Below are positions 3,420 to 34,775 of a stretch of DNA of 35,310 nt, piece after piece. The notes beneath the pieces were generated by a model. It ran no database searches. It saw only the letters and a program-made list of their open reading frames with translations, and was not told the origin of the DNA. Each line of letters starts with the position of its first letter. Within the stretch, counting starts at the first letter, position 1. Source of the stretch: an uncultured Lachnospiraceae bacterium (lineage in GTDB: Bacteria; Bacillota; Clostridia; Lachnospirales; Lachnospiraceae); assembly GCA_900318375.1 (NCBI GenBank), contig ONKG01000060.1, positions 1 through 35,310 of the forward strand, written 5' to 3'. The position numbers were made by a program, and so were the translations under genes.

Positions 3420-3525
3420 TTTAAATACTCCGTCCTTTCTGTAAATCATTTCTAACAACTGCCTGGCGGTTTGCCCGGAAAGAAATAACCTGTTAAGAAT
3501 AGCACAGTGACAAATGTGCGTCAAG

Positions 3526-3575
3526 AAGGGACTGTCCAAAGCGGCTGAACTTCTCAGCTGATTGAACAGTCCCTT
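3526..3575 (-). other. Perfect 10-bp inverted repeat between two minus-strand genes
   Basis: AAGGGACTGT (3526-3535) and ACAGTCCCTT (3566-3575) form a 10-bp stem, with AGCTGA-type internal pairing possible. It lies 19 nt after the stop of the lipoprotein gene. Only a weak T-run follows on the minus strand, so it could be a leaky terminator or an RNA-processing site. Confidence 0.5.
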
Positions 3576-3593
3576 GCGCTGGTTCATATCCCG

Positions 3594-4850: not shown

Positions 4851-4899
4851 GATTTATTATTCTCCTTAATTGTTATTGTAGTTCTGTTTATTTGTTTAG

Positions 4900-4929
4900 A
4901 TCTGCCGTCCGTCCGGCGGTTCGGCAGAT
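4900..4929 (-). promoter_or_regulatory. Hairpin in the 5' leader of the repeat lipoprotein gene
   Basis: ATCTGCCG (4900-4907) pairs with CGGCAGAT (4922-4929) about 50 nt before the lipoprotein start. Read on the plus strand it is followed by GTTTTT and could stop transcription entering the gene backwards; on the minus strand it would be a leader hairpin. Confidence 0.45.
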
Positions 4930-5083
4930 GTTTTTGCTCTGTTTTTGTTTTGCATGGCCAGTATAACAAGGGAAACTGCACAGAACTGTCACACAGAAAA
5001 CTGATTTTTACTTTTTTTAAAGAAAAGATTTTGAGAAGATTCAGAATTGGACAAGCGGGTCTTTACATGAGCTTTCCATGAAG

Positions 5084-5127
5084 CAAAAAAAACAGGGCAG
5101 AGGCGGTAATGCCTTCCTCTGCCCTGT
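5084..5127 (-). terminator. Rho-independent terminator of the two-domain secreted protein gene
   Basis: ACAGGGCAGAGG (5092-5103) and CCTCTGCCCTGT (5116-5127) form a perfect 12-bp stem. Read on the minus strand the stem is followed by eight T. It lies about 10 nt past the stop codon at 5139. Confidence 0.92.
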
Positions 5128-5138
5128 TCTATTATCTG

Positions 5139-5795
5139 TTAATTGTCTCTGGCGACAAATGTTCCGGAGATGGTCTGGTAAACGGAGGTTCCTTTGACGC
5201 GGACGCCGGAGATTTTGTAGGTGTACTTGCTGCCGACCTTGAGACCGCTGACTTTTACTTCGATGCTGTCCTTGTCCTTCTCAAGGATGCGGACGCTGTA
5301 ATTCTTTTTGCCATCGGTGATGACGACTTTCGCATTCTTCCACTGGACGTCAGATGCAAAATCAAATTCGAGTTCCTTATCTTTTCTGTCATAATCAGTC
5401 TTCTTGACCCGGGGAGTGCCGGAAGCAGCGGGGATGGTGACCTTTCCTGTCACTTTTCCGTAGGTCTTTTCTTTGTTCTTCCTGACGCCGGAGATCGTAT
5501 ATGTGTAAGTACGGCCGGCTTTGTAATTTTTGATGGTGAAGGTCAGATCATCATTATCTTTCTCATTGATCTTTACGCTGTAGCTTGCACCCTTGTTATC
5601 CTTAACTGAGACTTTGACATTTTTGTATTTCACCTTCGAACTGAAATCGACTTCGACCCTGCCATTGCCTTCATATTCAGCTGCCTTGATTTTCGGCGCT
5701 GCAAAAGCGGGGACAGCGGCGATCAACATCCAGACCATGACCATTGCGGTGCAGATCATTTTCCTGATTGCGGTTCCGGTATTTGTTTTCTTCAT
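5139..5795 (-). CDS. Secreted protein with two similar beta-sandwich-like domains
   Basis: A 218-aa protein. The ATG at 5795 is chosen because GAGGAGGAG precedes it by about 6 nt and it begins directly at a signal peptide: MKKTNTGTAIRK, hydrophobic core, then VPAFA-AP. After cleavage two domains of about 85 residues follow. Each contains a matching series: VEVDFSSKVKYKNVKVSVKD / LEFDFASDVQWKNAKVVITD, SVKINEKDNDDLTFTIKNYKAG / SVRILEKDKDSIEVKVSGLKVG, and YTYTISGVR / YTYKISGVR. This points to an internal duplication of an Ig/fibronectin-III-like fold (fold assignment is inference). There is no wall anchor, membrane helix or catalytic motif, so it is probably secreted or loosely wall-bound. It is the first gene on the minus strand here and has its own terminator. 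Confidence 0.8.
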   Translation of the reverse strand: MKKTNTGTAIRKMICTAMVMVWMLIAAVPAFAAPKIKAAEYEGNGRVEVDFSSKVKYKNVKVSVKDNKGASYSVKINEKDNDDLTFTIKNYKAGRTYTYTISGVRKNKEKTYGKVTGKVTIPAASGTPRVKKTDYDRKDKELEFDFASDVQWKNAKVVITDGKKNYSVRILEKDKDSIEVKVSGLKVGSKYTYKISGVRVKGTSVYQTISGTFVARDN

Positions 5796-5961
5796 ATTGT
5801 TCTCCTCCTCGTATGATAAGTTCGTATTTGCGGCCATGACCTCTTGCTGATAAACATGTTTTTAGTATGGACTTAGCATACATGAGAAATATTAAAACTT
5901 TCTTAGAGAAAGAGAAAAATAAAAAATATCCTCTCAGAAAAAATGCTCTGCATCAAAAATG

Positions 5962-5990
5962 TCGAAATAAAGTCAGGTTTGGTTTATACT
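5962..5990 (+). promoter_or_regulatory. Possible promoter for the TPR-nuclease pair
   Basis: TCGAAA and TATACT are separated by exactly 17 nt, a weak but correctly spaced pair about 130 nt upstream of the start at 6124. The 328-nt interval 5796-6123 is AT-rich and otherwise contains only the 19-bp repeats; no gene is visible in it. Confidence 0.35.
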
Positions 5991-6041
5991 TAGGGAGACT
6001 GCGTTATCACTTTATTATATGGAAGAGCTATATGAACAGAA

Positions 6042-6096
6042 GAACCATAGGATTATAGAAGAACCATAGGATAATAGAAGAACCATAGTATAAAAA
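6042..6096. repeat. Three 19-bp direct repeats upstream of the TPR-like gene
   Basis: GAACCATAG recurs at 6042, 6061 and 6080 in a 19-bp unit (GAACCATAGGATTATAGAA and variants). The array ends about 25 nt before the ATG at 6124, just upstream of the ribosome binding site, so copy number would change leader length. Confidence 0.85.
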
Positions 6097-6123
6097 AGAA
6101 AAAGGAAGCAGGGCGGAAGGAAC

Positions 6124-8433
6124 ATGACACATTTCGGAAGTGACAGAGACGATAAGACAGTCAAAAAGAAAAACGCTAAAAGTAAAGGTGAAGTGATTGT
6201 CAGCAGTATAAAGAATAACAGAAACAAATGGATCGCCGGCGCGCTGGCTGTCGTTATTCTTATAGCAGCCTATAGCTGCGCGGCCGGGGGCAGGTCTGGT
6301 GCCGGCGGCGGTCAGGAGAGCGGGTCAGCTGCCGGAATGACAGGAAGCGCCGGGAACCCTTCCTCTGCAGATGATGGATCTCTGGAGACAGGGACTGTCG
6401 AAACAGGTTCTCTGGAATCCGATTTTGAAGAGCGGGGTTCCGGAGGACAGGGTACAGTCGGAACCGGAAGCAGCGGGCAGAATACCGGGGAAAACGGTGA
6501 GGGCTCTGCGGATTCCAATCCCGGGGGAGGTGCCTATTCAGGAACAGGGACCGGTGCGGATACAGGGACCGGCTCGGATACAGGACCCGGCACAAGCTCA
6601 GGAGCGGGAGCGGATTCCGGAAGCGATACAGATTCGGGAATCGGAGTGGATTCCGGAACAAGTATAGCTTCAGGGGACGGAAAGGATTCAGGAACCGGCA
6701 AAGACTCAGGAACCGGCACAGGGACGGGATCCGAAGCGGGCGGCAGCGGAACGGATGACAGGATGACATCCACCCAGCGCAATTCGATCAATATGCTGAA
6801 CTACATGGCGGTCCTGACGCAGGAGATCAATGAATCCAAGGGTAATCAGATGTTCCTTGAGTCTGCCAATTCAGCCCTGGTCAATGACCTGTATCCGAAT
6901 GCGGTGGATACGAGAACACAGGCACAGGTGCAGAGCCTTCTGGATTCCATCGAAGGCTATCGCATGATCGACGTAAAAAGGAACCGCCTGGAATTTATCT
7001 ATGAGCAGAATAAAGCAAAGGCGCTCAGAAAGGCGGTCCCCAACCCGGTCGGTCTGCTCAGCGCAGTCAAGTCCCAGGATGTGCTGAGGACGGTCCTCTC
7101 AGTGGTCTATATGGCGGCGGATTCTGTCACCAGTTACAACACGGCTTCGTCCCAGACGGATCTGCAGTACATTAAAGAGGGCTGGGAACTGGATGACGCC
7201 GAGGCAGCGGAGCTTCACGACAGCACGAAGAGCGAACTGTCATATATGTTCAACATGGTCCGCGACTATTCACTGCCGGGCGATTATGCGCTGAATCAGG
7301 AGTCCGTGGAAAATTTTGTCTCATGGGTAAAAAATCCGAATGTTGTGCGCCGGATTGCATGGCTGGAGACAAATGAAAAAACCTACAGTCAATTCGGGCC
7401 TTATTGGCTGCGGCTGGCGGAAGCCTATTATGAGACAGGGGATTACAGCAAATGCCTGGAGGCATTCGGCAGATATGAAGCTATTGCGACTCGTATTTTC
7501 CGTAAAGATCTGGATTATGCCAGGGCACTGCCTATGGCGATCATTTCGGCAGCGGAATGCAGGGAGGAGTCGGAGTATATTGAGATTGCGGAGAACTATT
7601 GCGAACTGATCCTTTCTAACACAAAGGATTCGGACTGGGGACTTCGGTATTTTGTCGCGCAGACCTATCTGGATCTCTACGCAAAGACAGACCGGGATTC
7701 CTATCTGGATGCTGCTTATAAGATTGAGTTTGACAACGTGAATATTCTGGTCGATGAGCAGAAAGAGCTGAACACGGTCTATCTTCTGGATGTAGTGGAT
7801 GTCAAGGCAGAGAAGGATGCCACAAAGCGCGAAAAGAAGGAAATCAAGCAGTACAACAAAATGCGCAAAGAAGAGAGAAAGACTGCACTTCCTCCGGCCA
7901 GTGAGGCACTGTATCTGAACTGCGAAATGCTGTTTGCGCTGGCGGAGGAAAAAAATATTTCTGAGGCAGAGCAGAAAAAGATCGATGCGATCCTCCATGA
8001 GAACGGAGAGCCGATCTTCCTTGCCGGAACACTCGATGATAAGTTCCGGTTTGACCATTCAGAGACAGAGATCAACCCCGATGAAATCGCCGTGGAGTTT
8101 GACGGGAAATCGCTGACCATACCGGCAGTCTGTATGACAGACCGTTCCACGGTCACGCTTGAAATCTCAGGGCCCGACGGAAAGGAGACGATCGAAGACT
8201 GGACTGTCACATCGGTCAAAAGACCCGAGGGGGCAGAATGCGCGGATTACAAGGTCAAAATTAAAAGTCAGGCTGCGGGAAAGCACAAATATAAAGCCGG
8301 TGAGAAGCTTGTGATCAGGATCATCACGGTTGACGGAAAACCGGAAGATTATACGGCCTTCAACTACAAGGTCGTTTCGAAAAAGAAGTACCTGTTTGTA
8401 AATGGGATCGATTTTGAGAGGATTACAGAATGA
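6124..8433 (+). CDS. Membrane-anchored protein with Gly/Ser/Thr/Asp stalk and TPR-like domain
   Basis: A 769-aa protein; GGCGGAAGG precedes the ATG. A basic N-terminus is followed by one membrane segment at about 36-53 (WIAGALAVVILIAAYSC). There is no good lipobox, so it is probably a signal anchor with the rest outside. Residues about 55-215 are low complexity, rich in Gly, Ser, Thr, Asp and Glu (GTGTGADTGTGSDTG type), suiting a flexible wall-crossing linker. Residues about 215-620 are helical; WLRLAEAYYETGDYSKCLEAF and the segments after it look like tetratricopeptide repeats. A beta-rich C-terminal domain ends the protein (about 640-769). I recognise no enzyme motif. The last 4 nt overlap the nuclease start (ATGA), implying translational coupling and a joint role, for example scaffold, chaperone or surface tether of the nuclease (inference). 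Confidence 0.75.
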   Translation: MTHFGSDRDDKTVKKKNAKSKGEVIVSSIKNNRNKWIAGALAVVILIAAYSCAAGGRSGAGGGQESGSAAGMTGSAGNPSSADDGSLETGTVETGSLESDFEERGSGGQGTVGTGSSGQNTGENGEGSADSNPGGGAYSGTGTGADTGTGSDTGPGTSSGAGADSGSDTDSGIGVDSGTSIASGDGKDSGTGKDSGTGTGTGSEAGGSGTDDRMTSTQRNSINMLNYMAVLTQEINESKGNQMFLESANSALVNDLYPNAVDTRTQAQVQSLLDSIEGYRMIDVKRNRLEFIYEQNKAKALRKAVPNPVGLLSAVKSQDVLRTVLSVVYMAADSVTSYNTASSQTDLQYIKEGWELDDAEAAELHDSTKSELSYMFNMVRDYSLPGDYALNQESVENFVSWVKNPNVVRRIAWLETNEKTYSQFGPYWLRLAEAYYETGDYSKCLEAFGRYEAIATRIFRKDLDYARALPMAIISAAECREESEYIEIAENYCELILSNTKDSDWGLRYFVAQTYLDLYAKTDRDSYLDAAYKIEFDNVNILVDEQKELNTVYLLDVVDVKAEKDATKREKKEIKQYNKMRKEERKTALPPASEALYLNCEMLFALAEEKNISEAEQKKIDAILHENGEPIFLAGTLDDKFRFDHSETEINPDEIAVEFDGKSLTIPAVCMTDRSTVTLEISGPDGKETIEDWTVTSVKRPEGAECADYKVKIKSQAAGKHKYKAGEKLVIRIITVDGKPEDYTAFNYKVVSKKKYLFVNGIDFERITE

Positions 8434-9872
8434 AGAAACGTCTGATCGCCTTTGTGCTGGCGATTGTAATGCTGCTTCTGATGGACCTCCCTGTTTTTGC
8501 ATGTAATGAAAAACAGACCGAAACCTATGAACTGCAGCTGCTGTTCGGTGAGGAGTATTCTTCTTTTGATTCAAAGCAAGAGTTCAAGATGCTGATGAGC
8601 GCACTGTATTTGTGCAGTGAACAGTGTGACAATCAGGGGCAGGACAAGCTTGATTTCCTTGACCGCCGGCATGTCAGACGCCTTCCTGAACTGGAAGAGC
8701 TCAACATCAAGAACTCCGACCTGGCGGAGTGCTCCCACAACAGCTGGGAGTATGAATATACACCGCTTTCCAGGATCCAGAACAGAAGGAAAAAACTTCT
8801 GGTAAAGACTGTAAAGACGGTTTTCCAGTTCAGTTTCTTCGACGGGCTTTTTCACGATGGAAATCAGAAAGCGGACAGCTTTTCCGCCATGCTCTACTAT
8901 ATGCATATTTTGTCCGATCTTCTGGCGGACAACCCCTCAGCGTCGGATGCATCACTGGAAAGCGGCAATGTCAATCCCTTCTCCGGGAGCGCGTCTGAGG
9001 AAGTCAACGGAAACCAGCCCGGATTCACCCCGGAACAGATGAAGTATGCGGATTATTCCTTCTACAGTGAACTGGATTATTTACATCGCTGCGGAATGGC
9101 CTTTAAAGTGATCGGACCGGATACCCTGCAGACGGGCGACAGCAAAGAAGATTTCGGTATGAACGATCCGCCCGGATGGAGTCAGAAAAGATATGACGAC
9201 ATTATCGATGTCGGCTATTTATATCACAGATGTCACCTGATCGCCCATCAGCTCGGAGGCAATGAAGATCAGAAAAATATCATGACAGGGACATCCTACC
9301 TCAACGAAACAGGCATGAAGCCTTACGAGGAAAAGGTGGCAAATTACGTCAGGAAAACGGGCAATCATGTACTTTATCGCGTCACTCCTTTTTATAAAGG
9401 AGAGAACCTGATCGCGTCCGGTGTCCAGATTGAGGCATATTCAATCGAAGATAAGGGGCAGGGTGTCTGCTTTAACGTCTACTGCTATAATGTACAGCCC
9501 GGTGTGGAGATCAACTATAATACAGGAGACAACAACAGGGCTGACACGATTTATGACGATCCCCATGCCCTTCCCTTTGCAGTTTACAAGGCGGACGAAA
9601 ACAATCCGGATCTCATCCTTGAGATGAACAAGCACCTGGCAATCCTTTTTGAGGATCATACCAGTTCCCGCATATACATCTCCATGATGGATAATATCGG
9701 AACCGTCGCCGAAAAAGCCAGAAACATCGGTTTAAAGGGGGAAAAACCGGCGCAGATCTACAAGGCACGCAAAGAATGCCAGTATGAGTACTTCAACATA
9801 CTCAAAGAGCACATTCCCCTCCTGCTTCGGAAAGAAGACTTCTTCTCGAAAGTGTTTTATAAGTATAGGTAA
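8430..9872 (+). CDS. Secreted EndA-type DNA/RNA non-specific endonuclease
   Basis: A 480-aa protein with a signal peptide (MKKRLIAFVLAIVMLLLMDLPVFA-C). Residues about 25-215 are helical and unrecognised. The C-terminal half matches the Endonuclease_NS_2/EndA family (beta-beta-alpha metal nucleases). H269 in RCHLIAHQLGG corresponds to the general base His160 of pneumococcal EndA, and N292 (nine residues after N283, as in EndA N182/N191) to the Mg-binding Asn. HVLYRVTPFY and FNVYCYNVQPGVEINYNTGD match later family blocks. The canonical DRGH has become HRCH, so two flanking residues differ. Such enzymes cut single- and double-stranded DNA and RNA outside the cell for DNA uptake, nutrient scavenging or competition. 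The gene overlaps the TPR-like gene by 4 nt and is closed by a terminator. No obvious inhibitor gene is adjacent. Confidence 0.88.
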   Translation: MKKRLIAFVLAIVMLLLMDLPVFACNEKQTETYELQLLFGEEYSSFDSKQEFKMLMSALYLCSEQCDNQGQDKLDFLDRRHVRRLPELEELNIKNSDLAECSHNSWEYEYTPLSRIQNRRKKLLVKTVKTVFQFSFFDGLFHDGNQKADSFSAMLYYMHILSDLLADNPSASDASLESGNVNPFSGSASEEVNGNQPGFTPEQMKYADYSFYSELDYLHRCGMAFKVIGPDTLQTGDSKEDFGMNDPPGWSQKRYDDIIDVGYLYHRCHLIAHQLGGNEDQKNIMTGTSYLNETGMKPYEEKVANYVRKTGNHVLYRVTPFYKGENLIASGVQIEAYSIEDKGQGVCFNVYCYNVQPGVEINYNTGDNNRADTIYDDPHALPFAVYKADENNPDLILEMNKHLAILFEDHTSSRIYISMMDNIGTVAEKARNIGLKGEKPAQIYKARKECQYEYFNILKEHIPLLLRKEDFFSKVFYKYR

Positions 9873-9967
9873 GAAGGACTGAGGGGACGGGCAATGAAGC
9901 GATCACGGTGACAAACCTGTAAAAGACAGCGGAATGTACCCTGGAGAGATAAGGATCAGGAAGTCAG

Positions 9968-10016
9968 AAAGACCGGAGACGGTTCTGCGGAATGCAGAAC
10001 CGGCCTCCGGTCTTTT
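9968..10016 (+). terminator. Terminator after the TPR-nuclease operon
   Basis: AAAGACCGGAG (9968-9978) pairs with CTCCGGTCTTT (10005-10015), with inner GGTTCTGC/GCAGAACC pairing, followed by TTTT. It is a long GC-rich stem with a short loop, about 95 nt past the nuclease stop. Confidence 0.9.
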
Positions 10017-10064
10017 AAGGTCTGAGTCTCTGTGCCTTTTAAGGTCCGAGTCCCTGTGCCTTTA
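10017..10064. repeat. 24-bp tandem duplication
   Basis: Two 24-bp units (10017-10040 and 10041-10064), each AAGGTC.GAGTC.CTGTGCC plus TTT, directly abut the terminator and end 18 nt before the stop of the minus-strand lipoprotein gene. Confidence 0.85.
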
Positions 10065-10081
10065 TCGGGACATTCTCCTCT

Positions 10082-12604
10082 TTATTCGGTCGGAATACCG
10101 CCCGGCTCTTCCCAGTAGTCTTCATAGGAGAACCAGGAATCGTCCCAGCAGGAATCGGCGTTGTCGAGGTAGACTCCGTCGAAGCCCTGGTCGATGATGC
10201 GGTCGATGGAGGAGGTGTTGTCTCCTGTAACGATGTTGTTATATTTACCGCCGCCGTTGATGATGATATCGCGCCAGTCTTTATGCCACCACTGGACAAC
10301 CGACTCCTCTGGATATTCATCTCCGTAGCTGAAGGCCAGCCATGTGGGAATCGGGTCACCTTCGGCTTCCATGCCGGCTTCTGTCGCTTCAAAGGGAATG
10401 TAATAAGAGCGGTTTCCCAGCCAGCGGATCTCGCCGGTTTTCATGCTGTATGTGGAGTCGAGGTTGGTCGGGTCGACCCATCTCCAGTTATCCTGGCAGT
10501 ACCAGCGGTTCTGTTCCGCTGTGCCGATTGCCAGATAGGAGAGTACCAGGCGGCGTCCTCCGTCGGGTTTTGTCTTCAGACTCTCCACCTCTTCTCTGGT
10601 CAGAGGTGTCATGCTGTCGGGACCAGCCTTGTGATTGTAGCAGGAATCGATAAAGATTACGTCATAGTCGGAATTGCGGAGTGCTTCCAGCCATGTCTCT
10701 CTGCCGGCATTTTCATCCAGTCCGGCAGCTCTCCACCACCAGTCCCAGTGTTCTCCGTATTCATCTATTGCGCCTGTAATTGCCTCGTCATCCGGATCTT
10801 CGGATGCGGGCAGATAACTGCCGTTTTCGGAAGGGACCAGAAGTCCGCAGGCGTAGGAATCTGTGATCCTGACCCTGTCACCGGAGCCTTTATTGAACGC
10901 GGCTTCCTCCGTATCCCACATATTCCAATTGTCATAGGGACGCCCGTTTATATTGTAGAGATAGGTTCTGGCGTCTGTCAGTTCATTGACATCGCGGGAA
11001 CCGTCAGTATATTCGGAGAGTCCGATCTTGTCGGTGTCCTCCACCCAGAAATAATCAAAATTATCCGCAAAGCGCTGTCCGGGATAGAGCTCCTGTGCCA
11101 GATCCGCGCCGATACGGGGGAAGGGTACGATTCCCCATTCCTGTGCTTTGGAGATATATTTTTCGAGGTCTTCCTCTGAAGACACGATGGTCGTATCCGT
11201 GATAAATTTTCCGTTTTCGGCAAGTGTAATATACGCAGCCTGGATGGAATTGGGGGCAAAGCTCTTATCTTTGCCGACCACGCCCTCGTTGCCCCATCCG
11301 TCGATCAGTTCCATCATGGACGGCTGGAGATCCTTTTTGATATTTCCGTCAGTGAATCCCAGATATTCGGCACCCTGGATCATAACTTTGAAATCAGGAT
11401 TTTTCTCTTTTGCGTGGAGGGACAGTTCCATCAAAAATGCCTGCATTTTGTGGATGCGGCCGATCGTTCCGGGGCCGTCTTTGGTATAGAGATCCTCAAT
11501 CTCCTGCATGTATTCATCGTGGGTCTTTTCTAAAGAGGTACCATCCACAGATTCGGCAGAGCCCGCGCCTGCTTCATCCGTGCCGCCTGTCTGCTGTCCT
11601 GCTGCGGCCTGTGCGGCAGGGTCTGCCGCTTCAGTCGTATGAGGAACCCAGTCGATCATTTCTTTTGCGGAAGAGGTCAGCGAATCTTCCGGGCTGCGGG
11701 GTTCTGCCGGTACACTTTCATCTTTCTCGTACTCGACCATGTCATCGTCAACACTCAGGTAAAGATAATTGCCCTCAATGGTATATTCCCATGATGTCTC
11801 TTCGTTTTTTACCATGAGCTCTGTACTGGTCCAGAGTACAGGGATCTCTTCGTCGGTTTCCATGGTTCCGGAATGATCTTCATACAGGACGATCGTCCTG
11901 GGCGCGTCCGCTGAATCGTCGACTTTCCGGTATGTGCCGGGATAGTAGGAGAAGAGGGTCTGCGGTTCGGAATCTTCAAAAGTCATGGAATTGACCATAT
12001 CGTGAAGAGTGTCGGAGGCAAAATATTCCAGTGTCACGTCCGCCTCACTGCAGCTGTGGATGGTGGTGAGGATCACGCCGCCCTTATATTCCATTGAGGT
12101 ATAGTCAATGGTGACTTCATACTCGTCACTGTCATCGACGGAAGCGGTAAAACACCATTTGTCGACGCCGACATACCCTTCGTCCCGGCTGACAGCGTCT
12201 TCATCATAATCCTCGAGCCGTGCAGTGAGGGCTTCCATGGGCTGCACATCGGGAATGAATTCGACAGTCAGGTAGTTTTCTCCTGTCTGTTCACCGGTGT
12301 ATTGAAACAGAACCGAATCCTCGGTTCCCGCGTCAATTTCGACAGTATCCGGATCATACTTTATGCTCCATCCGTATTTGCTTGCGTAGGTTTCGAAGCC
12401 TTCCGGATCGGGGACATCTGTCCCCTCTGCCGTCTGTGACTGTGCTGCAGCGCCGGTCCCGGCATCTGCGGAGGAGTCATCGGCTTTACCCCCTGCCTGA
12501 TCTGCGGAACCCTTGCTGTCTGCGGAAGAAGCGCCCCCGCCGGAGCATGCGGTCAGCAGACAGAGCACCAGCAGGGAAACTATGAGTCGTTTTGCTGTTT
12601 TCAT
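10082..12604 (-). CDS. Large lipoprotein with C-terminal GH114/TM1410-like glycosidase domain
   Basis: An 840-aa protein. The ATG at 12604 is used because GGGAGGTGGAG ends at it and the signal sequence follows at once. The lipobox is LLTAC (Cys about 21), followed by a Gly/Ser/Ala/Asp linker. Residues about 60-330 form one or two beta-rich domains of unknown type (YASKYGWSIKYDPDTVEI...). A second Ala/Gly/Thr linker lies at about 335-385. Residues about 390-840 show features of GH114 and TM1410-like TIM barrels: EWGIVPFPRIG, YDVIFIDSCYN, LVLSYLAIGTAEQNRWY (about 685-700) and GFDGVYLDNAD (about 808-818). GH114 covers endo-alpha-1,4-polygalactosaminidases acting on amino-sugar exopolysaccharide. 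The usual IGEAE motif reads IGTAE, losing one acidic residue while keeping the second. Substrate is not predictable; envelope or biofilm polysaccharide is likely. It is convergent with the nuclease operon and divergent from larA. Confidence 0.78.
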   Translation of the reverse strand: MKTAKRLIVSLLVLCLLTACSGGGASSADSKGSADQAGGKADDSSADAGTGAAAQSQTAEGTDVPDPEGFETYASKYGWSIKYDPDTVEIDAGTEDSVLFQYTGEQTGENYLTVEFIPDVQPMEALTARLEDYDEDAVSRDEGYVGVDKWCFTASVDDSDEYEVTIDYTSMEYKGGVILTTIHSCSEADVTLEYFASDTLHDMVNSMTFEDSEPQTLFSYYPGTYRKVDDSADAPRTIVLYEDHSGTMETDEEIPVLWTSTELMVKNEETSWEYTIEGNYLYLSVDDDMVEYEKDESVPAEPRSPEDSLTSSAKEMIDWVPHTTEAADPAAQAAAGQQTGGTDEAGAGSAESVDGTSLEKTHDEYMQEIEDLYTKDGPGTIGRIHKMQAFLMELSLHAKEKNPDFKVMIQGAEYLGFTDGNIKKDLQPSMMELIDGWGNEGVVGKDKSFAPNSIQAAYITLAENGKFITDTTIVSSEEDLEKYISKAQEWGIVPFPRIGADLAQELYPGQRFADNFDYFWVEDTDKIGLSEYTDGSRDVNELTDARTYLYNINGRPYDNWNMWDTEEAAFNKGSGDRVRITDSYACGLLVPSENGSYLPASEDPDDEAITGAIDEYGEHWDWWWRAAGLDENAGRETWLEALRNSDYDVIFIDSCYNHKAGPDSMTPLTREEVESLKTKPDGGRRLVLSYLAIGTAEQNRWYCQDNWRWVDPTNLDSTYSMKTGEIRWLGNRSYYIPFEATEAGMEAEGDPIPTWLAFSYGDEYPEESVVQWWHKDWRDIIINGGGKYNNIVTGDNTSSIDRIIDQGFDGVYLDNADSCWDDSWFSYEDYWEEPGGIPTE

Positions 12605-15809: not shown

Positions 15810-15839
15810 TTGTATCGTTTGCCATGTATAATTTATAAT
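15810..15839 (+). promoter_or_regulatory. Promoter of the lectin-kinase gene
   Basis: TTGTAT (15810-15815) and TATAAT (15834-15839) are 18 nt apart. The predicted start of transcription (about 15846) lies beyond the ATG at 15838, which supports ATG 15883 as the true translation start. Confidence 0.65.
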
Positions 15840-15882
15840 GTTCTTACTATTATTATATGATGTAAAGGTCAAAAGGTATCCA

Positions 15883-18261
15883 ATGGCTCTGAGTCTCGTC
15901 AAGTTGCACAAACAGCCGAAGGGCCTTGCGCAGCTCCGAAGGAGATGCTTTGATGAGCTGACATACATCCAGCAGGAACTATCATCGGTCTGGCCGGATT
16001 GGACGATTACAAAAAAGATCGGAAAGGGAAGTTTCGGGACTGTCTATGAGATCACGCGCAATGACCTTGGCAGAACCTACAGCTGTGCCCTGAAGGTCCT
16101 TCACATGGAGACGGGCGATAACGGCCTGTACTACGACAGTGAGAGCTGCGCTGCAGGTATGGATAATACCGACCTGACAGAAGGACGGTTTGATACAGAC
16201 GGCGGGGAGCCTGATCGTGACAGTGAGTCTGCAGGTTTTTCGGCTTTTTCATTCGGTATGCAGGAGAGCGCGCTTGATGAGTTTATTTCCGGCGTAATCA
16301 GGGAAATTGATATGATGATGCGGCTTAAAGGAACGCCCAATATCGTATCGATCGAGGATTATAAAGTCCTGCGCTCGAATGACTCATGCACCATCCTGAT
16401 CCGCATGGAACTTCTGGAGAGTCTGGAAAAATATTACAGAAGAACAGGAAAACCCGGATGGCGTGATGTAGTCCGTCTCGGAACAGATATCTGTACGGCC
16501 CTGGAATTCTGCGAAAAGAACAATATTATTCACCGGGATATAAAGCCGGGAAACATTTTTTACAGCGAAAAAGCGGGATTTAAACTCGGGGATTTCGGAA
16601 TCTCCAGGACCATGTCCACTATTTATGAAAAAGTGTCCATGAGCGGAGCCGGGACATTTCAGTACATGGCGCCCGAAATATATGATGGAAGCCGATATGA
16701 CAATACGGTGGATCTCTATTCTCTCGGTATTGTACTTTATATCCTGCTCAATAAAGGGCTGCCGCCATTCTGTGACACCAGTGACGGCTCAGAAGAGGAA
16801 GGAGCCGGAGGATTTCCCGGATTTTCAGCACTGCATGAGGCAAATATACGCCGGCTGAAGAGAACGCCTCTGCAGTTTCCCTGCGAAGCCGGAGACGAGT
16901 TGTCTGCGGTGATCTGCAAAGCCTGTGACCCCTATTCTGAAAATCGCTATCAGACAGCCGCCCAATTCAAAGACGCGCTGCAGGGATGTCTGACCGGAAG
17001 AACGAGTTCGGACGCGGAACAGGGCGCTCTGTCAGAACCTGCGGTCAACGGAAACGTTTCTGAAGGCGGCGAGAGTGCTATGCATGGCCTCAGATCTGCC
17101 GGCGGAGGCAGCAGTTCTTCAGGGGAAAACAAAGACAGCAGTGATAACAGGAAAATCAAAGATAGCATAGACGACATAGGTAACAGAGACGGCGGAGATA
17201 ACAGAGATAACAAAGACAGCAGAGACAACGAAGACAAGAGGAAATCCGGGAGAAAGGGAAAGCCTCCGGGTTTGATCCTGCTGCTTGCGGCAGGTTTTAT
17301 AGCTCTTGCAGGGATCGGGTGTTTTTTCCTTGTCCGCAGCAGTTCCGCCTCGTCCTCTTCTGCCGTGGAAGCCGTGGATTCTGCGGATTCCGCAGAGTCT
17401 GACGGGGCAGTCTATTATACGATTATTTCCAGGGATAATAACGGAGTGACACTTGAGCGGGAGGTGAAGGAGGGCATTGCCGGGGAGAAGGTGACAGAGG
17501 TCCCCAAGGAGAGAGAAGGCTACAGAATCGAAGAGGATTCCCAGACACTTGTGCTGTCTGAGGACGGTTCTGAAAATATCATTCTTTTCCAGTACACGAA
17601 AGTGGAGAACAACGGGGCGGCGGCTGTGTCTTATACCGTGATCTGTGTGGATGAGGAGACATCAGAAATCCTGTCCGAAAAAAAATATTACGGCGAGAAA
17701 GGGGCATCTGTCCTGCTGACTGCGCCGAAAGTTGAGGGATTTGTTCCGCGGGTGGATTCGCAGACCGTCGTTTTATCGCATGATGAGAAGGAAAATGTGT
17801 TTTACCTCTCTTATGATTCCTGTGAGGTGATCGCCGGGCAGCTGGACATCCCGGACGGAAACGTCCTGCGTTATAAGGGACATACCTATTATGCACTGCG
17901 CACAGAGAGTATCGACTCCTTCCGTGACGCCAATCAGTACTGCAGGGAGCACGGAGGCCATCTCGCCGTACTCAGCGACGCTGAGGAAAACGCTGCTGTA
18001 TATGATTATGTCTTTTATGATCTGAAATATGAAAGTGCCTATTTTGGCCTGACGGACGACGGATCGGAAGGCAGCTGGTACTGGGTGGACGGGACTCCTT
18101 TCAGCTTTGAAAGCTGGCTGGAAGGGCAGCCGGACGGACTTGGAGATACAGAAAACTACGCACTGTTTTGGTATAAAGATGTTCCTTATAAGTGGAATGA
18201 CGGGGATTTCGGAAAAGACGCGGAAGGAAGGGTTACATTTTTGATTGAGTGGGATCAGTGA
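15883..18261 (+). CDS. Transmembrane Ser/Thr kinase with MucBP-like repeats and C-type-lectin-like ectodomain
   Basis: A 792-aa protein; ATG 15883 follows AAAAGG. The kinase domain (about 40-330) is complete: GKGSFG loop 48-53, Lys71, alpha-C Glu141, HRD 217-219 with Asn224, DFG 237-239, APE 263-265. An Asp/Ser-rich insertion of about 55 residues sits between Lys71 and the alpha-C helix. A Ser/Asn/Asp-rich segment leads to one membrane helix at about 462-483. Outside are two repeats of about 65 residues (YTIISRDNNGVTLEREV.. and YTVICVDEETSEILSEK..) like MucBP modules. The last about 130 residues form a C-type-lectin-like domain (YYALRTESIDSFRDANQYC to WNDGDF). It keeps QPD (749-751), Glu757 and WND (771-773), the residues that in animal lectins bind calcium and galactose-type sugars; the usual disulfides are absent. 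It is probably a receptor kinase signalling inward on glycan contact (inference). An unrecognised protein gene follows after 139 nt. Confidence 0.88.
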   Translation: MALSLVKLHKQPKGLAQLRRRCFDELTYIQQELSSVWPDWTITKKIGKGSFGTVYEITRNDLGRTYSCALKVLHMETGDNGLYYDSESCAAGMDNTDLTEGRFDTDGGEPDRDSESAGFSAFSFGMQESALDEFISGVIREIDMMMRLKGTPNIVSIEDYKVLRSNDSCTILIRMELLESLEKYYRRTGKPGWRDVVRLGTDICTALEFCEKNNIIHRDIKPGNIFYSEKAGFKLGDFGISRTMSTIYEKVSMSGAGTFQYMAPEIYDGSRYDNTVDLYSLGIVLYILLNKGLPPFCDTSDGSEEEGAGGFPGFSALHEANIRRLKRTPLQFPCEAGDELSAVICKACDPYSENRYQTAAQFKDALQGCLTGRTSSDAEQGALSEPAVNGNVSEGGESAMHGLRSAGGGSSSSGENKDSSDNRKIKDSIDDIGNRDGGDNRDNKDSRDNEDKRKSGRKGKPPGLILLLAAGFIALAGIGCFFLVRSSSASSSSAVEAVDSADSAESDGAVYYTIISRDNNGVTLEREVKEGIAGEKVTEVPKEREGYRIEEDSQTLVLSEDGSENIILFQYTKVENNGAAAVSYTVICVDEETSEILSEKKYYGEKGASVLLTAPKVEGFVPRVDSQTVVLSHDEKENVFYLSYDSCEVIAGQLDIPDGNVLRYKGHTYYALRTESIDSFRDANQYCREHGGHLAVLSDAEENAAVYDYVFYDLKYESAYFGLTDDGSEGSWYWVDGTPFSFESWLEGQPDGLGDTENYALFWYKDVPYKWNDGDFGKDAEGRVTFLIEWDQ

Positions 18262-18400: not shown

Positions 18401-19675
18401 ATGTCTGAATGGATCAACATGATTACGGATAATACGATAGACTGGTCGAACAATTCTCTTGAGTATACCAGAAAGGCAGGGCGGGACATTCAGTCTCTGG
18501 TCCGCAGGAGGGATTTTTCGGAGAATGACAGCAGGATGATACTCCGCTATCTGAGAAGCCAGTCGGAAATCATTCCTTTTGGCCAATATCTGAAGAGATA
18601 TATTTATCAGCGGTTCGGCAGAAAAAACGGGCTCGGAAAGGATGATGACGCGGCTTACAGGGATTTTTTGAAAACAGCTTTTTCGCGCACAAATACGCCT
18701 AAATCCTTTCACCGGTCCAGTACTACGCTGGGGGCTCTGATCAATGGGTGGCTCAGTGCCGCCTCTGTCAGCAGGGAGACAGTGTTTTTGCTGGGATTCG
18801 CCCTGAAAATGCCTGTGGAAGATGTCTCTATGTTTCTGACGAAGGCAATCTGCGAACAGGACTTTAATCTCAACGACCCGGAGGAGGTCATTTACTGGCA
18901 CTGCTACAGAAACAGGCTGCCGGCTATGTATGCCCGGGAAATGATGGAAGCCTACAATCATTCCGACGTTCTGCCTGTGTTGGATCCGGGAGAAGCTGCA
19001 GCGGATGTAAGGCTCAAGATGCCCGGGGATCAGGAGGCCTTCCTGCTGCCGGACGGTCCCACACTGGTCAACAGAATGAATCTCCTGAAAGGGAGGATGA
19101 GCGAGAAGGAAATCCTCGACTATCTCTCGACTTTGAAGGCACAGAAAAAACTAAACCGATACAGCCGAACGGCATATAACTGCTTTGTCAGTCTCATGGA
19201 GCGAGCGAAGTCACAGATTCAGGATCTGAATGCGGAGGAGGACCTCTACGTATTCGGAAAAGTCCAGGACAGAAAAACCGTAAAGGAGGCGGAAATCGAG
19301 AAGATCCTGTACAGCGGAGTTCCTGTCGATGAGAAGGGAAATCTGCTGAACAGCTCATTTTCAAGTCTGGGGAAAGGCTTTGCAAAACACCGCCTGAGCA
19401 GGCAGCGGATGAGCCGTCTGCTGTCCGGAAAAGCGGCAGTCACCCGGTATGATCTTCTGACGCTTCTGTTTTTGAACTTTGTCCTCAAGGACGAAGAGGA
19501 GCCGATTCCCCGCTATAAGCAGTTTGTAAAAAACGCCGACGCCATTCTTGAATATTGCTATATGGGCAGACTGAATATTTCCAATTTATATGAAGCCTTC
19601 CTCCTGGTCTGCCTGCTCACAGAGGACCCCCTGAATGCCTTTTCAGAGGTCTGGGAGCAGTCTTATCAAGAGTAA
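18401..19675 (+). CDS. Unrecognised 424-aa protein with a possible HTH-like segment, next to the lectin kinase
   Basis: A 424-aa protein; GGAGGAG lies 5 nt before the ATG. It is mainly helical, soluble, and rich in Arg, Lys, Glu and Leu, with no signal peptide or membrane segment. Residues about 103-150 (LGALINGWLSAASVSRETVFLLGFALKMPVEDVSMFLTKAI) resemble the 'SR..V..LaFALgL...e...fL..A' helix pair seen in XRE-type regulators. That is a weak visual similarity. FSSLGKGFAKHRLSRQRMSRLLSGKAAVTRYDLLTLLF (about 322-360) has a second similar helix-turn pattern, so a duplication is possible. The position directly after the kinase suggests a substrate or effector, and the many Ser/Thr in loops would permit phosphorylation. 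Function not assigned. Confidence 0.75.
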   Translation: MSEWINMITDNTIDWSNNSLEYTRKAGRDIQSLVRRRDFSENDSRMILRYLRSQSEIIPFGQYLKRYIYQRFGRKNGLGKDDDAAYRDFLKTAFSRTNTPKSFHRSSTTLGALINGWLSAASVSRETVFLLGFALKMPVEDVSMFLTKAICEQDFNLNDPEEVIYWHCYRNRLPAMYAREMMEAYNHSDVLPVLDPGEAAADVRLKMPGDQEAFLLPDGPTLVNRMNLLKGRMSEKEILDYLSTLKAQKKLNRYSRTAYNCFVSLMERAKSQIQDLNAEEDLYVFGKVQDRKTVKEAEIEKILYSGVPVDEKGNLLNSSFSSLGKGFAKHRLSRQRMSRLLSGKAAVTRYDLLTLLFLNFVLKDEEEPIPRYKQFVKNADAILEYCYMGRLNISNLYEAFLLVCLLTEDPLNAFSEVWEQSYQE

Positions 19676-20222: not shown

Positions 20223-20313
20223 GAACTCATCAAATAAAACAAAACAAGGCAGATGAAGCAGAACGATCATCTGTCAGTTAAAAACATTTTAGATTAAGAA
20301 AAGGAGAATGAAC

Positions 20314-20658
20314 ATGGATAACGAGATGAAGAAAATGAACGCAGAGGAACTTGGAGAGGTTGCAGGCGGAGCATACGGTGTTGAGGGAGTCCCGATTTAC
20401 GACAATAACGATGGTACCGGCAAATATAAATCAACAGTAACAGGTCTGCAGTCAGGCTGGCTTGCTCTCAGGAGTGAACCCGGCTACAATGCCAGCAATG
20501 AGATCGGACAGCTTTACAATGGTGATAAGGTTGAGGTCCTCGGCGAGGTCCGTTACGTGAATAATGACTTTAACGCCGGCGGAGCCACAAAATATATCAA
20601 GGTCAAGGCCCTCAAACTTGGCAAGATCGGCTGGGTTAATGCATCCTTCATCGCCTGA
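20314..20658 (+). CDS. Double-glycine leader peptide with bacterial SH3-like domain
   Basis: A 114-aa protein. ATG 20314 is preferred over 20308 because AAAGGAGA lies 6-7 nt upstream of it. Residues 1-19 (MKKMNAEELGEVAGG core) form a classic double-glycine leader: acidic helix with L/V spacing and GG at 18-19, as in class II bacteriocins and peptides exported by C39-peptidase ABC transporters. Cleavage after Gly19 would release about 95 residues. The mature part (SGWLALRSEPGYNASNEIGQ, GDKVEVLGEV, IGWVNASFI) matches an SH3b domain, a module that commonly binds cell wall. It is therefore probably not a simple pore-forming bacteriocin. No PCAT transporter or immunity gene is in the window; the C39-like protein at 26195 is secreted and differs from transporter peptidases. 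It has its own promoter and terminator, so probably a single-gene transcript. Confidence 0.85.
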   Translation: MDNEMKKMNAEELGEVAGGAYGVEGVPIYDNNDGTGKYKSTVTGLQSGWLALRSEPGYNASNEIGQLYNGDKVEVLGEVRYVNNDFNAGGATKYIKVKALKLGKIGWVNASFIA

Positions 20659-23436: not shown

Positions 23437-26118
23437 TCAGTCATGTTCAACATAGCCGATGGACATTTCATCCAGGACGGAAAAATCTGTTATGAGATTC
23501 TCTTTCATTTTCAGATGGTATAGTTTCGTGCAGTTTCGTATTGGCGTGATGTCCTTGATCCTGTTGGATGTCATGGTCAGCACGGCCAGATCGGGCATGT
23601 TTGCCACTACACTGATATCTTCCACATAATTGTAGCTGATGTTCAGGTAAGTGAGCCTGGTCATTCCGGCAATGGCTGAGATGTCACTGATCTGGTTGGT
23701 GCCGAGGTAGAGGTCGTTCATATTGGTCATGTCTCTGAGAACACTGACATCAGAAATCATATTATAACGGAGATCCAGCATCGTGAGAGATTTCATGCCT
23801 TCCAGGGCTGAAATGTCCGATATGTTATTGTCGTAAAGATCAAGCTTCTCGATCCATGTCATTTCCGCAAGAGGAGTCAGGTCTGAAATTTTATTTTCCT
23901 CAAGGTGAATCTGTTTGAGACCGGTAAGGCCTGACAGAGGAGAAAGGTCTTCTATACTGTTGTTTTTGAGACGCAGTTCTTCCAGGCGTGTAAAATACCG
24001 GAGTGAATCGATATTGATGATGCCTGCATCTTCAAGTACCAGCCTTTTGACGGAAGCAGCATCCTTGTAAGTCATTGTGCCGTCAATATTCAGATAGCTG
24101 TAAACGGCTTTGCGAAGGTTGCCGTCACTCCATTCGATCGGGTCGGTCAGGGAGGGAGATGCCGGAGTCTGATTGTCCGGCGGTGCAGTGACGTCTGAAT
24201 CGGGCTCGTCAGTCTGGGCAGCGGCGCCTGAATCGGGCTCGTCAGTCTGGGCAGTGACGTCTGAATCGGGCTCGTCGGTCTGGGCAGTGACGTCCGAATC
24301 CGGAGTATCAGTCTCTACAGTATTGCCGGAATCCGACACCTGCGTTGGTGCGGAGCCGCCGGGAATCGGGTCTTCATTCTGTGCAGATATTCCGGAATTG
24401 CTGCCTGCCGTCGGCCCGGTCACGGTTTGTCCGGCGGATCCGTTGTTGAAAAGATACCCGATTCCCACCAGGACGATAACCGCGACAGCAGCACTGATCA
24501 AAACGATGATCGGAATCAGCGGCAGACCGCCGCCTTTTTTGTCTCTGTAATAGTCGGATGACGCGGTGGACCTGTTTACACTGCCTCCATGCGACGCAGA
24601 AGGCCTGCGGGGACCGCCGCCGTACGACGCAGAAGACGCAGAAGGCCTGCGGGAATCGCTGCTGTAGGATGAGGATGCGGAAGGTCTGCGGGAATCGCCG
24701 CTGTAGGGTACGGAAGGCCTGCGGGGATCACCGCTGTAGGGCACGGAAGAGCCGCGGGGATTACTGCTGTATCCTTGTGAATATGACTGCCCGCTCTGTT
24801 CTCTGAAAGAAGCATTGTAGTCGACGACAGTCTGTCCGCCTGCGGGAGAACTGTATTCGGCAGCATTTCTGCTGTCACGGTTTTCACTGTCCCCGCTTTC
24901 ATCGGGGGTCTCAGGGAAAATCCGGATGATCCGGCTCTCACGGTTAGTGCCCGCACTGCTCTGAGAAGAAGGATCGGAAACAAATCCGGCTTCCTTAACG
25001 GGAGTGCGTCTTGTCTGTTCAGGGTTTTGTGAGCCGCTGTCTCCTCCGGGAAGAGAACTGCCGCCGGCAAAGGCTGCAGAAGAGGCGGAAAGACACTGGC
25101 TCAAAGCAGTCGAAAAAGTATCCGCAGTCGGATAACGTTTTTCCGGTTTGGGGGAACATGCAGTCAGAATGACGCCGGCGAGACGATCATCTGCCTGGGA
25201 AGGCCCGGGCAGCGATTCTCCCTGCAGACGGCGTATATTTGCCTGATGCATTATGGAGATGCGATCCGCTGAATCAGGATAATCGCTGCACAGAGGAGGC
25301 ATCATGTTGTTCATGAGGATGTAGAGGACGATACCCAGGGAATACAGGTCCGCGGTGTTATTGTAGCGGTCGCCCATGTAGACTTCCGGGGCCATATACT
25401 GCGGAGTTCCCGTGCCGCTCATCGATGCTCTTTCATAGATGGAATCCATGGTGCGGGAGATACCGAAATCACCCAGCTTGTAGCCTGTTTTTTCACTGAA
25501 GAACAGGTTGTTGAGCTTAATGTCCCGATGGATGATATTTTTCTTTTCGCACAGGGAGAGAGCTTTGCAGATACTTATGCCCAGGCGGATCACTTCGTCC
25601 CGGCTCATGCTGCCCGTTCGTTTTATATATGCGGTCAGGGCCTCCAGCTTTTCCATACGGATCAGGATCGCGCAGCTGCTTTTGGTCCTGCGTACAGCAT
25701 AATCTTCAATGGAAACAATATTCGGATGGCCCTTGAGCTCGATCATGGTCTTGATCTCGGCGCTGACGTTGACGATGAAATCATCGATCATGCTGTCCGA
25801 TGCGTAGCGCAGAAAAGGATTTCCGGATGAACCGCCGGAGCCTGAACCGCTGCCGGAGCCGCTGCCGGAGCTGAGTCCGCTTGCGGAACCGGAAGGGTCC
25901 CGAAAAGTGCCGGACGAGTCATTCATATAGTCAATGCTCTCAGCATCCGAAGATTCCATGTAAAGGATTTTCAGGGCAGAAGTATAGCGGGTTCCCAGGT
26001 CGTCCCTGTATATTTCGTATACGGAGCCGTAACTTCCTTTTCCGAGCCTGGAGGCTACTTTCCATTCCGGCCATACAGAGGCCAGAAGTTCCCGTGTAAA
26101 AGCTGTATCACCGTACAT
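23437..26118 (-). CDS. Transmembrane Ser/Thr kinase with LRR ectodomain
   Basis: An 893-aa protein; GGGGGT lies 6 nt before the ATG. The kinase (about 18-340) is complete: GKGSYG 26-31, Lys50, alpha-C Glu121, HRD 197-199 with Asn204, DFG 217-219, APE 243-245. A Gly/Ser-rich insertion (about 66-105) separates Lys50 from alpha-C, at the same place as in the kinase at 15883. The shared SVWPEW start and SMSGTG..QYMAPE loop show the two are paralogues. A Ser/Pro/Arg/Tyr-rich segment (about 340-545) carries repeats of SYSGDSRRPSA type. One membrane helix lies at about 550-575, then DSDVTAQTDEP repeats, then nine 22-residue LRRs (about 680-885) of the internalin kind (LxxLxLxxNxISDIsxLxxMxx). Predicted topology: kinase inside, LRR outside, as in receptor-like kinases. 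It lies 76 nt downstream of the C39-like gene on the same strand. Confidence 0.9.
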   Translation of the reverse strand: MYGDTAFTRELLASVWPEWKVASRLGKGSYGSVYEIYRDDLGTRYTSALKILYMESSDAESIDYMNDSSGTFRDPSGSASGLSSGSGSGSGSGSGGSSGNPFLRYASDSMIDDFIVNVSAEIKTMIELKGHPNIVSIEDYAVRRTKSSCAILIRMEKLEALTAYIKRTGSMSRDEVIRLGISICKALSLCEKKNIIHRDIKLNNLFFSEKTGYKLGDFGISRTMDSIYERASMSGTGTPQYMAPEVYMGDRYNNTADLYSLGIVLYILMNNMMPPLCSDYPDSADRISIMHQANIRRLQGESLPGPSQADDRLAGVILTACSPKPEKRYPTADTFSTALSQCLSASSAAFAGGSSLPGGDSGSQNPEQTRRTPVKEAGFVSDPSSQSSAGTNRESRIIRIFPETPDESGDSENRDSRNAAEYSSPAGGQTVVDYNASFREQSGQSYSQGYSSNPRGSSVPYSGDPRRPSVPYSGDSRRPSASSSYSSDSRRPSASSASYGGGPRRPSASHGGSVNRSTASSDYYRDKKGGGLPLIPIIVLISAAVAVIVLVGIGYLFNNGSAGQTVTGPTAGSNSGISAQNEDPIPGGSAPTQVSDSGNTVETDTPDSDVTAQTDEPDSDVTAQTDEPDSGAAAQTDEPDSDVTAPPDNQTPASPSLTDPIEWSDGNLRKAVYSYLNIDGTMTYKDAASVKRLVLEDAGIINIDSLRYFTRLEELRLKNNSIEDLSPLSGLTGLKQIHLEENKISDLTPLAEMTWIEKLDLYDNNISDISALEGMKSLTMLDLRYNMISDVSVLRDMTNMNDLYLGTNQISDISAIAGMTRLTYLNISYNYVEDISVVANMPDLAVLTMTSNRIKDITPIRNCTKLYHLKMKENLITDFSVLDEMSIGYVEHD
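24188..24330. repeat. Tandem repeat encoding (D)EPDSDVTAQT in the LRR kinase
   Basis: A 33-bp unit including GAATCGGGCTCGTCAGTCTG and GGCAGTGACGTCT occurs about four times and encodes EPDSDVTAQTD on the minus strand, just outside the membrane. A separate imperfect array at about 24600-24760 encodes YSGDSRRPSA repeats just inside it. Both preserve frame. Confidence 0.75.
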
Positions 26119-34522: not shown

Positions 34523-34775
34523 CGGCTTTTCTTCGCTGTTTATTCTTTCCTGCGGTCATGATCCCAAAGCTGCAAATATGTATGAATAAACTACGCGCTG
34601 CTCCGCGCCGCGGGCGCTCTCGCATCGCTCCAAACATTCGGAATCCGCTCGTTTTGCGCGAAATGCGTGCGCCAAACGGCTTCTTCCTCATGTTTGGACG
34701 CTCGTCAAGGCCTCATGAGCGTTCGTGCGGGCACGACGCTCCCTCGGCTTTTCCTCACTGTTTATTCATACATAT
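34523..34775. repeat. Inverted and direct repeats bounding a GC-rich block (MITE-like)
   Basis: ATATGTATGAATAAAC (34576-34591) is perfectly inverted at 34760-34775 (GTTTATTCATACATAT), enclosing about 168 bp rich in GCGC and CTCGC words. A 23-bp direct repeat, CGGCTTTTCTTCGCTGTTTA plus TTC at 34523 and its two-mismatch copy at 34745, overlaps the right arm. The arrangement resembles a small non-autonomous mobile element or a decayed repeat. There are no transposase remnants. Confidence 0.65.

Follow-up and report, generated by a model that had tools for sequence, protein, structure and literature searches.

We report here that a 35,310-nt stretch of DNA from an uncultured Lachnospiraceae bacterium (contig ONKG01000060.1, forward strand; below, the window, i.e., this whole stretch) encodes a Hanks-type kinase with one membrane helix and a C-terminal head that is predicted to be a true C-type lectin-like domain (CTLD) and that keeps the calcium-ligand residues of sugar-binding C-type lectins. 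The larger point, missing from the initial annotation, is that this protein belongs to a shared kinase family with exchanged ectodomains, including a kinase with leucine-rich repeats (LRR) encoded 5 kb away. The source genome has 3.93 Mb in 193 contigs and is 82% complete; the window is its contig C164, positions 1–35310.

The forward frame at 15883–18261 is open and encodes the receptor kinase P0001 of 792 aa. The mechanically called open reading frame (ORF) begins earlier, at 15838, and yields 807 aa; the ATG at 15883 is the likelier start, since AAAAGG stands upstream of it at the usual distance (by eye). The kinase motif set is complete, comprising the G-loop (residues 47–52), K71, the helix-C glutamate E141, HRD (217–219), DFG (237–239), and APE (263–265), with an insert separating K71 from helix C. 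By these motifs and by the Pfam Pkinase match (131.6 bits; cut-off 31.7) the protein is a Hanks-type Ser/Thr kinase, and it is presumably active. No PASTA domain was found in the Pfam scan of the 792-aa protein, and the PASTA-kinase model NCBIfam NF033483 reaches 138.8 bits on it, far under the cut-off of 450. A charged low-complexity linker leads from the kinase domain to the basic flank KRKSGRKGK and the single helix (approximately residues 461–484), an arrangement that by the positive-inside rule fits a kinase inside the cell and a C-terminus outside.

The segment between the helix and the head contains two repeats that match one another (E 2e-8). MucBP is not called by Pfam on the window protein even at E up to 1; the first repeat matches (E 6e-12) the MucBP-bearing stretch of a paralogue in the same genome (C66), where Pfam MucBP scores 31.4 bits against a cut-off of 23. 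The architecture given in the initial annotation, i.e., a kinase, one helix, two MucBP-like repeats, and a C-terminal lectin fold, is thus borne out by the Pfam matches, motifs, and repeat matches and by structure prediction with AlphaFold2 and Foldseek.

The CTLD was recognized by Pfam Lectin_C at 45.6 bits (cut-off 22.6), and the Lectin_C match in the genome search (49.7 bits) extends to position 94 of the 107 in the profile. The AlphaFold2 model of the CTLD, computed from an alignment of 30 CTLDs, has pLDDT 94.8 and pTM 0.89. In a Foldseek search, 492 PDB chains matched it with E of 0.001 or less, and the best 50 of these all have the C-type lectin fold (E from 8e-10 to 4e-8). The top match is SRCL (TM-score to target 0.82), and the sugar-binding lectins CEL-I, ASGPR, MGL, mincle, and langerin are also among these 50. 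With a profile of the same 30 CTLDs, 194 PDB sequences were matched (E of 1e-5 or less); the best 60 are C-type lectins or chains containing such domains.

All residues expected of a calcium site were found where the initial annotation had placed them (QPD at 749–751, E757, and WND at 771–773). In langerin and mincle, the residues aligned gap-free with Q749-P-D751 and E757 are E-P-N and E, and those aligned with W771-N-D, after a one-residue gap, are W-N-D, so that by alignment the motifs fall on residues of a common calcium site. The comparison with these EPN-type lectins locates the predicted ligands and leaves the sugar undecided.

Conservation was assessed in a set of 66 CTLDs, from which duplicates (L003, L004, L019, L044, L153, L154, L163, L164, L009, L011, L012), matches spanning fewer than 95 profile positions and, by hand, L023 at a contig edge had been removed, with identical sequences collapsed. 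The five-ligand set, for which D at 757 was also accepted, is complete in all eight kinase-linked CTLDs and in 37 of the 58 others. Upon addition of 23 more CTLDs from the genus (after dropping short matches and L196, L197, and L205, which equal records L052, L049, and L054), these numbers became 12/13 and 50/76, and with L220 added, 13/14 and 50/76; we give no p-value for the last comparison because the rows are related. In the nine-member clade of closest CTLDs, 42 of the 128 columns are invariant, including the ligand columns 751, 757, 772, and 773 (hypergeometric P 0.01). The fifth ligand column, 749, contains Q in seven members and E in two, and the third residue of the triplet is D in all nine. 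A tyrosine two residues ahead of W771 is also invariant in this clade, the same position being occupied by glycine in 44 of the 58 non-kinase CTLDs.

The galactose type initially proposed for the lectin is a weak label. The triplets of the 14 kinase-linked CTLDs are mixed (QPD in 5, EPD in 2, EPN in 6, APD in 1), and hence galactose specificity is not upheld; even in the close clade, two of the nine first residues are E. In galactose lectins with QPD, this triplet is followed by a tryptophan and a glycine-rich stretch. The corresponding loop of the window protein, QPDGLGDTENY, has neither. The cysteines of animal C-type lectins had been described as missing, which is true in part: C687 stands at the usual helix position, where 61 of the 66 CTLDs have a cysteine, and its C-terminal partner is gone throughout the close clade. 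C687 is the only cysteine at an expected position, leaving both canonical disulfides, which are typical of the fold and not defining, unformed. The equivalent of C687 is also absent from L050 and L051; L150 and L035 retain both cysteines.

A search for further kinase–CTLD fusions, suggested by the initial annotation, yielded 13 distinct proteins in 11 genomes. In the genus of the source bacterium these are the window protein and its C66 paralogue (one genome), single proteins in L050, L051, L053, L055, L150, L190, and L192, and two in tandem in L186; fusions occur in 9 of the 62 genus genomes searched, the source genome being counted. From 54 CTLD matches listed in the genus search, 20 regions were fetched, picked by large frames and strong scores. 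Beyond the genus, one fusion comes from another genus of the same family (L035), obtained in a search where 25 of 397 genomes had CTLD matches at E up to 1e-10, and one from another family of the class (L220), obtained where 24 of 391 genomes had matches at E up to 1e-15. The fusion counts are lower bounds, since the loci from these searches extend only about 1.5 kb past the match and kinases further upstream would be missed. The tandem kinases of L186 (2000–5977, reverse strand) are of another kinase type, one having two successive CTLDs and a zinc-ribbon-like N-terminus (by eye).

A diversity-generating retroelement (DGR) would offer another explanation for a kinase with a lectin-fold tail, namely that the CTLD is a DGR target with a hypervariable lectin surface. 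Cyanobacterial DGR proteins have the same order of an N-terminal kinase and a C-terminal CLec domain (PMC7517822). However, no template repeat was found in the source genome, 82% complete as it is: elsewhere in it, the CTLD DNA matches only the C66 paralogue, at 69%. Moreover, both reverse transcriptases found sit in frames of 678 and 793 aa, longer than is usual for DGR enzymes. We therefore rejected the retroelement explanation, which we regard as highly improbable.

The CTLD is one of several heads carried by related kinases. The LRR-kinase of the window is 46% identical to P0001 over residues 22–442. It contains the elements of plant LRR receptor kinases, arranged in the opposite order. 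In the source genome, the related kinases have CTLD (2), LRR (3), DUF6273 (3), or an unrecognized head (1), and one more, the second kinase of C119, closes with a stretch resembling DUF6273 (by eye); C97 (L013) encodes a kinase whose repeats, judged by eye, look PASTA-like. In other genomes, a solute-binding ectodomain (SBP_bac_8) was found on related kinases of L146, L152, L142, and L149 (one of two, the other having a YARHG head), and NPCBM, F5/8-type, and PASTA domains also occur. When 299 genomes of the family were searched for the kinase at E 1e-60, only the source genome was retrieved, as the threshold was too strict; at E 1e-35, 28 of 245 relatives (a set overlapping the 299) had a match.

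The kinase tree comprises 79 of 89 kinase ORFs, nine duplicates and one L151 fragment being excluded; ORFs at 60 bits or less or lacking HRD, e.g., the second C119 kinase, had been removed beforehand. It was built quickly, has SH-aLRT as its sole measure of support, and leaves 31 of 75 inner branches open; 34 of the 79 kinases are labelled "other", i.e., with an unrecognized head or none, a class only partly covered by the Pfam scan. One clade (SH-aLRT 99) unites kinases with LRR (12), CTLD (5), solute-binding (3), and YARHG (1) heads. A distant clade (SH-aLRT 100) has ten rows, with LRR (4), CTLD (2), solute-binding (1), and unrecognized heads; these represent nine distinct kinases, as the cut copy L055_11335 is identical to L163_835. 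A single kinase clade for the six kinases with the closest CTLDs was rejected (log-likelihood loss 288, p-AU 3e-13; 78 rows, without L055_11335). At the same time, the CTLDs of these six kinases lie in one clade, the nine-member one considered above (SH-aLRT 95), which also contains two membrane proteins having no kinase (L052, L054) and L049, cut at a contig end. Hence, kinases of two lineages and anchors without a kinase have the same head. The simplest reading of the two trees is that head swapping underlies the shared CTLD type, in a direction that they do not set.

For the genus as a whole, we give slight preference to the view that C-type lectin, LRR, solute-binding, DUF6273, and YARHG heads are cassettes repeatedly exchanged among lineages of transmembrane Hanks kinases and non-kinase anchors, with which individual genomes would possess a plant-like array of receptor kinases for glycans outside the cell and for other ligands.

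As for the window protein itself, a calcium-dependent glycan receptor kinase working like the plant C-type lectin receptor kinases seems to us a little likelier to be the right reading than a wrong one. P0001 would be a type II receptor Ser/Thr kinase (N-terminus in, C-terminus out), with the MucBP-like repeats keeping the CTLD at a distance from the membrane, either within the cell wall or past it. By analogy with C-type lectins, the CTLD would bind an extracellular glycan via one calcium ion held by Q749, D751, E757, N772, and D773; by analogy with receptor kinases, glycan binding may gather receptors together, whereupon the kinase domains would phosphorylate one another in trans on the activation loop and then phosphorylate cytoplasmic targets. 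The solute-binding, NPCBM, and LRR heads of related kinases are likewise plausible ligand-binding domains, which supports a receptor role.

Several observations weigh against sugar binding through calcium. Firstly, many CTLDs bind proteins or nothing, and sugar-free CTLDs are common in animals; aggrecan and lithostathine, whose domains are not known to bind sugar, are also among the best 50 Foldseek matches. Secondly, the geometry of the calcium site rests on the alignment and the overall fold. The best Lectin_C stretch (679–753) ends ahead of WND, and a model of the ectodomain built on eight sequences has low confidence in the CTLD loop (pLDDT below 50 at model residues 220–257). The latter model was set aside as weak there, and the fold assignment rests on the 30-sequence model, which is good in this loop. 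Thirdly, the excess of complete ligand sets in kinase-linked CTLDs is modest and comes from related rows, one of which, L192 with APD, breaks the set. Finally, the Q/E position varies inside the clade; hence the sugar type either is not conserved or is not set by this position. The CTLD might then be a protein-binding or structural head, its ligand residues persisting as calcium stabilizes the loop. The ligand lost from L192, the QPD/EPD variation at a residue that helps to set the sugar type, and the abundance of sugar-free animal CTLDs would all suit such a head. However, what is retained in 13 of the 14 kinase-linked domains is the whole ligand set, beyond the structural residues, and we consider a head without sugar binding quite improbable.

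The gene neighborhoods bear on the source of a possible glycan ligand. In the loci of C66, L050, and L051, an LRR-kinase comes immediately before the CTLD-kinase, after which stand a zinc-ribbon protein and, judged by eye, a deaminase-like one. A protein with a GH25 domain (muramidase family) precedes the LRR-kinase in C66 (L006, where the order from the GH25 protein to the zinc-ribbon protein spans 3508–11204) and L050; the L051 record starts inside the LRR-kinase, and any GH25 gene would fall outside it. Such neighborhoods led us to admit a role in the cell envelope: the lectin head may read the peptidoglycan, teichoic acid, or capsule glycans of its own cell, as a sensor of wall integrity and not of environmental glycans. 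PASTA kinases read the cell wall, and the stalk would put the head close to it. On the other hand, the window copy has no adjoining GH25 gene, its LRR-kinase is 5 kb off on the opposite strand, and its remaining neighbors differ. Different neighbors were also found in L053, where the order is an LRR-kinase, a short kinase without a membrane helix, and the CTLD-kinase, and in L055, where a similar short kinase stands ahead of the CTLD-kinase. We consider reading of the cell's own envelope rather unlikely, and retain, with the reserve expressed above, a receptor for extracellular glycans.

Table 1. Positions of the CTLD kinase, its parts, and associated features in the window.
Feature	Position	Strand	Basis
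CTLD receptor kinase, 792 aa (P0001)	15883..18261	+	Frame, Pfam, motif positions
Dispersed-repeat arm: likely ribosome-binding site, ATG, and some 22 initial codons of the CTLD kinase	15857..15949	+	Genome matches
Hanks-type kinase domain used as search query (residues 31–367)	15973..16983	+	Pfam Pkinase 131.6 bits
Basic flank KRKSGRKGK (452–460) and transmembrane helix (461–484)	17236..17334	+	Sequence, hydropathy
Two MucBP-like repeats forming the stalk (residues 510–573, 582–646)	17410..17820	+	Internal repeat, paralogue match
C-type lectin-like domain, residues 651–792, reaching the C-terminus	17833..18258	+	Pfam Lectin_C, AlphaFold2, Foldseek
QPD motif 749–751, predicted calcium/sugar ligands Q749 and D751	18127..18135	+	Aligned with EPN of langerin, mincle
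E757, predicted calcium ligand	18151..18153	+	Aligned with Glu of langerin, mincle; E in 56/66 CTLDs
WND motif 771–773, predicted calcium ligands N772 and D773	18193..18201	+	Aligned with WND of langerin, mincle
Sister receptor kinase, 893 aa, LRR ectodomain in place of the CTLD	23437..26118	-	Pfam Pkinase 131.4, LRR_4 123.5 bits

The start of the CTLD-kinase gene lies in an arm of a dispersed repeat. A 201-base query spanning this arm had 61 genome matches listed, the self-match and inverted arms being counted; a paired inverted arm was present in three of the five copies fetched, and the window yielded a single arm.

The next gene downstream of the CTLD kinase (18401–19675, forward strand) encodes a 424-aa protein that matches nothing in Pfam at E 0.01 or in NCBIfam at 0.001. 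Among the loci fetched, a relative of it adjoins one other kinase only, the LRR-kinase of L159 (same place as L092; 35% identity). In a small forward ORF at 20308–20658, a bacterial SH3 domain (Pfam SH3_3, 33.1 bits) comes after an N-terminus that, judged by eye, resembles a leader peptide of the double-glycine type. A protein with a DACNV sensor domain (71.2 bits) is encoded at 1877–3001 (forward strand). The sole Rfam match in the window, a Clostridiales-1 RNA at 34585–34766 on the reverse strand (RF01699, 92.7 bits), is unrelated.

Bacterial receptor kinases are known mainly via PASTA domains and cell-wall sensing. Like the PASTA kinases PknB, PrkC, and Stk1, P0001 is a transmembrane Hanks kinase with a C-terminal ectodomain, from which, however, PASTA is absent. 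In its fold and in the positions of its calcium-site residues, the head resembles animal sugar-binding C-type lectins (SRCL, CEL-I, mincle, langerin, ASGPR), but the disulfide pairs are not retained and a galactose type is not borne out by the relatives.

In plant C-type lectin receptor kinases (C-LecRK), the ectodomain is N-terminal and the kinase C-terminal. The window protein shares with them a membrane kinase joined to an extracellular C-type lectin domain; it differs in being bacterial, in having the kinase at the N-terminus and the lectin at the C-terminus, in its MucBP stalk, and in the several fusions found across kinase lineages. One or two C-LecRK per plant species are reported (PMC5889549). 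The likeness we propose is one in the way of working; we do not claim that the two descend from a shared receptor. The recurrence of an animal-like lectin head with intact calcium ligands on several kinase lineages, alongside LRR and solute-binding heads, suggests the evolution in these Clostridia of a modular receptor-kinase system resembling that of plants; it would show the ease with which ectodomains are swapped on bacterial kinases, and it offers a direct test of whether a Hanks kinase answers a defined glycan.

LRR and solute-binding heads are already known on bacterial kinases, as a 2005 survey of kinase architectures mentions an LRR kinase from Pseudomonas aeruginosa and a Streptomyces coelicolor kinase with an extracellular solute-binding domain (PMC1262709); a term search of its main text does not return the word "lectin". 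Unlike those cases, the LRR, CTLD, and solute-binding heads considered here belong to kinases that are close relatives, and an LRR-kinase adjoins a CTLD-kinase in three loci.

A prokaryotic kinase with a C-type lectin fold is not new as such, since two kinds of fusion are in print; the initial statement that PASTA is the usual bacterial ectodomain passes over both. Cyanobacterial kinases with a C-terminal CLec domain, diversified by retroelements, form paralogous families, as outlined in the available sections of PMC7517822. They share with the window protein a bacterial Hanks-type kinase, a C-terminal domain of the C-type lectin fold, and membership in paralogous families, and differ from it in their link to retroelements with template repeats, none of which was found for the window CTLD. 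The membrane helix, Pfam Lectin_C match, and calcium ligand set of the window protein go unmentioned in those sections, which is not proof of their absence from the cyanobacterial proteins. Fusions of phage CotH-family kinase domains with hypervariable C-type lectin domains, described as unstudied in PMC8008677, likewise join a kinase of the prokaryotic world to a C-type lectin domain; however, CotH is another kinase family, and these fusions are phage-borne with a hypervariable lectin. Beyond these two, no prokaryotic fusion of a kinase with a C-type lectin was found in the open-licence PMC literature, which does not show absence from print. What seems new here is the combination of a membrane-spanning Hanks kinase with a head of the Lectin_C type in which the calcium ligands are retained, this head being one of an exchangeable set.

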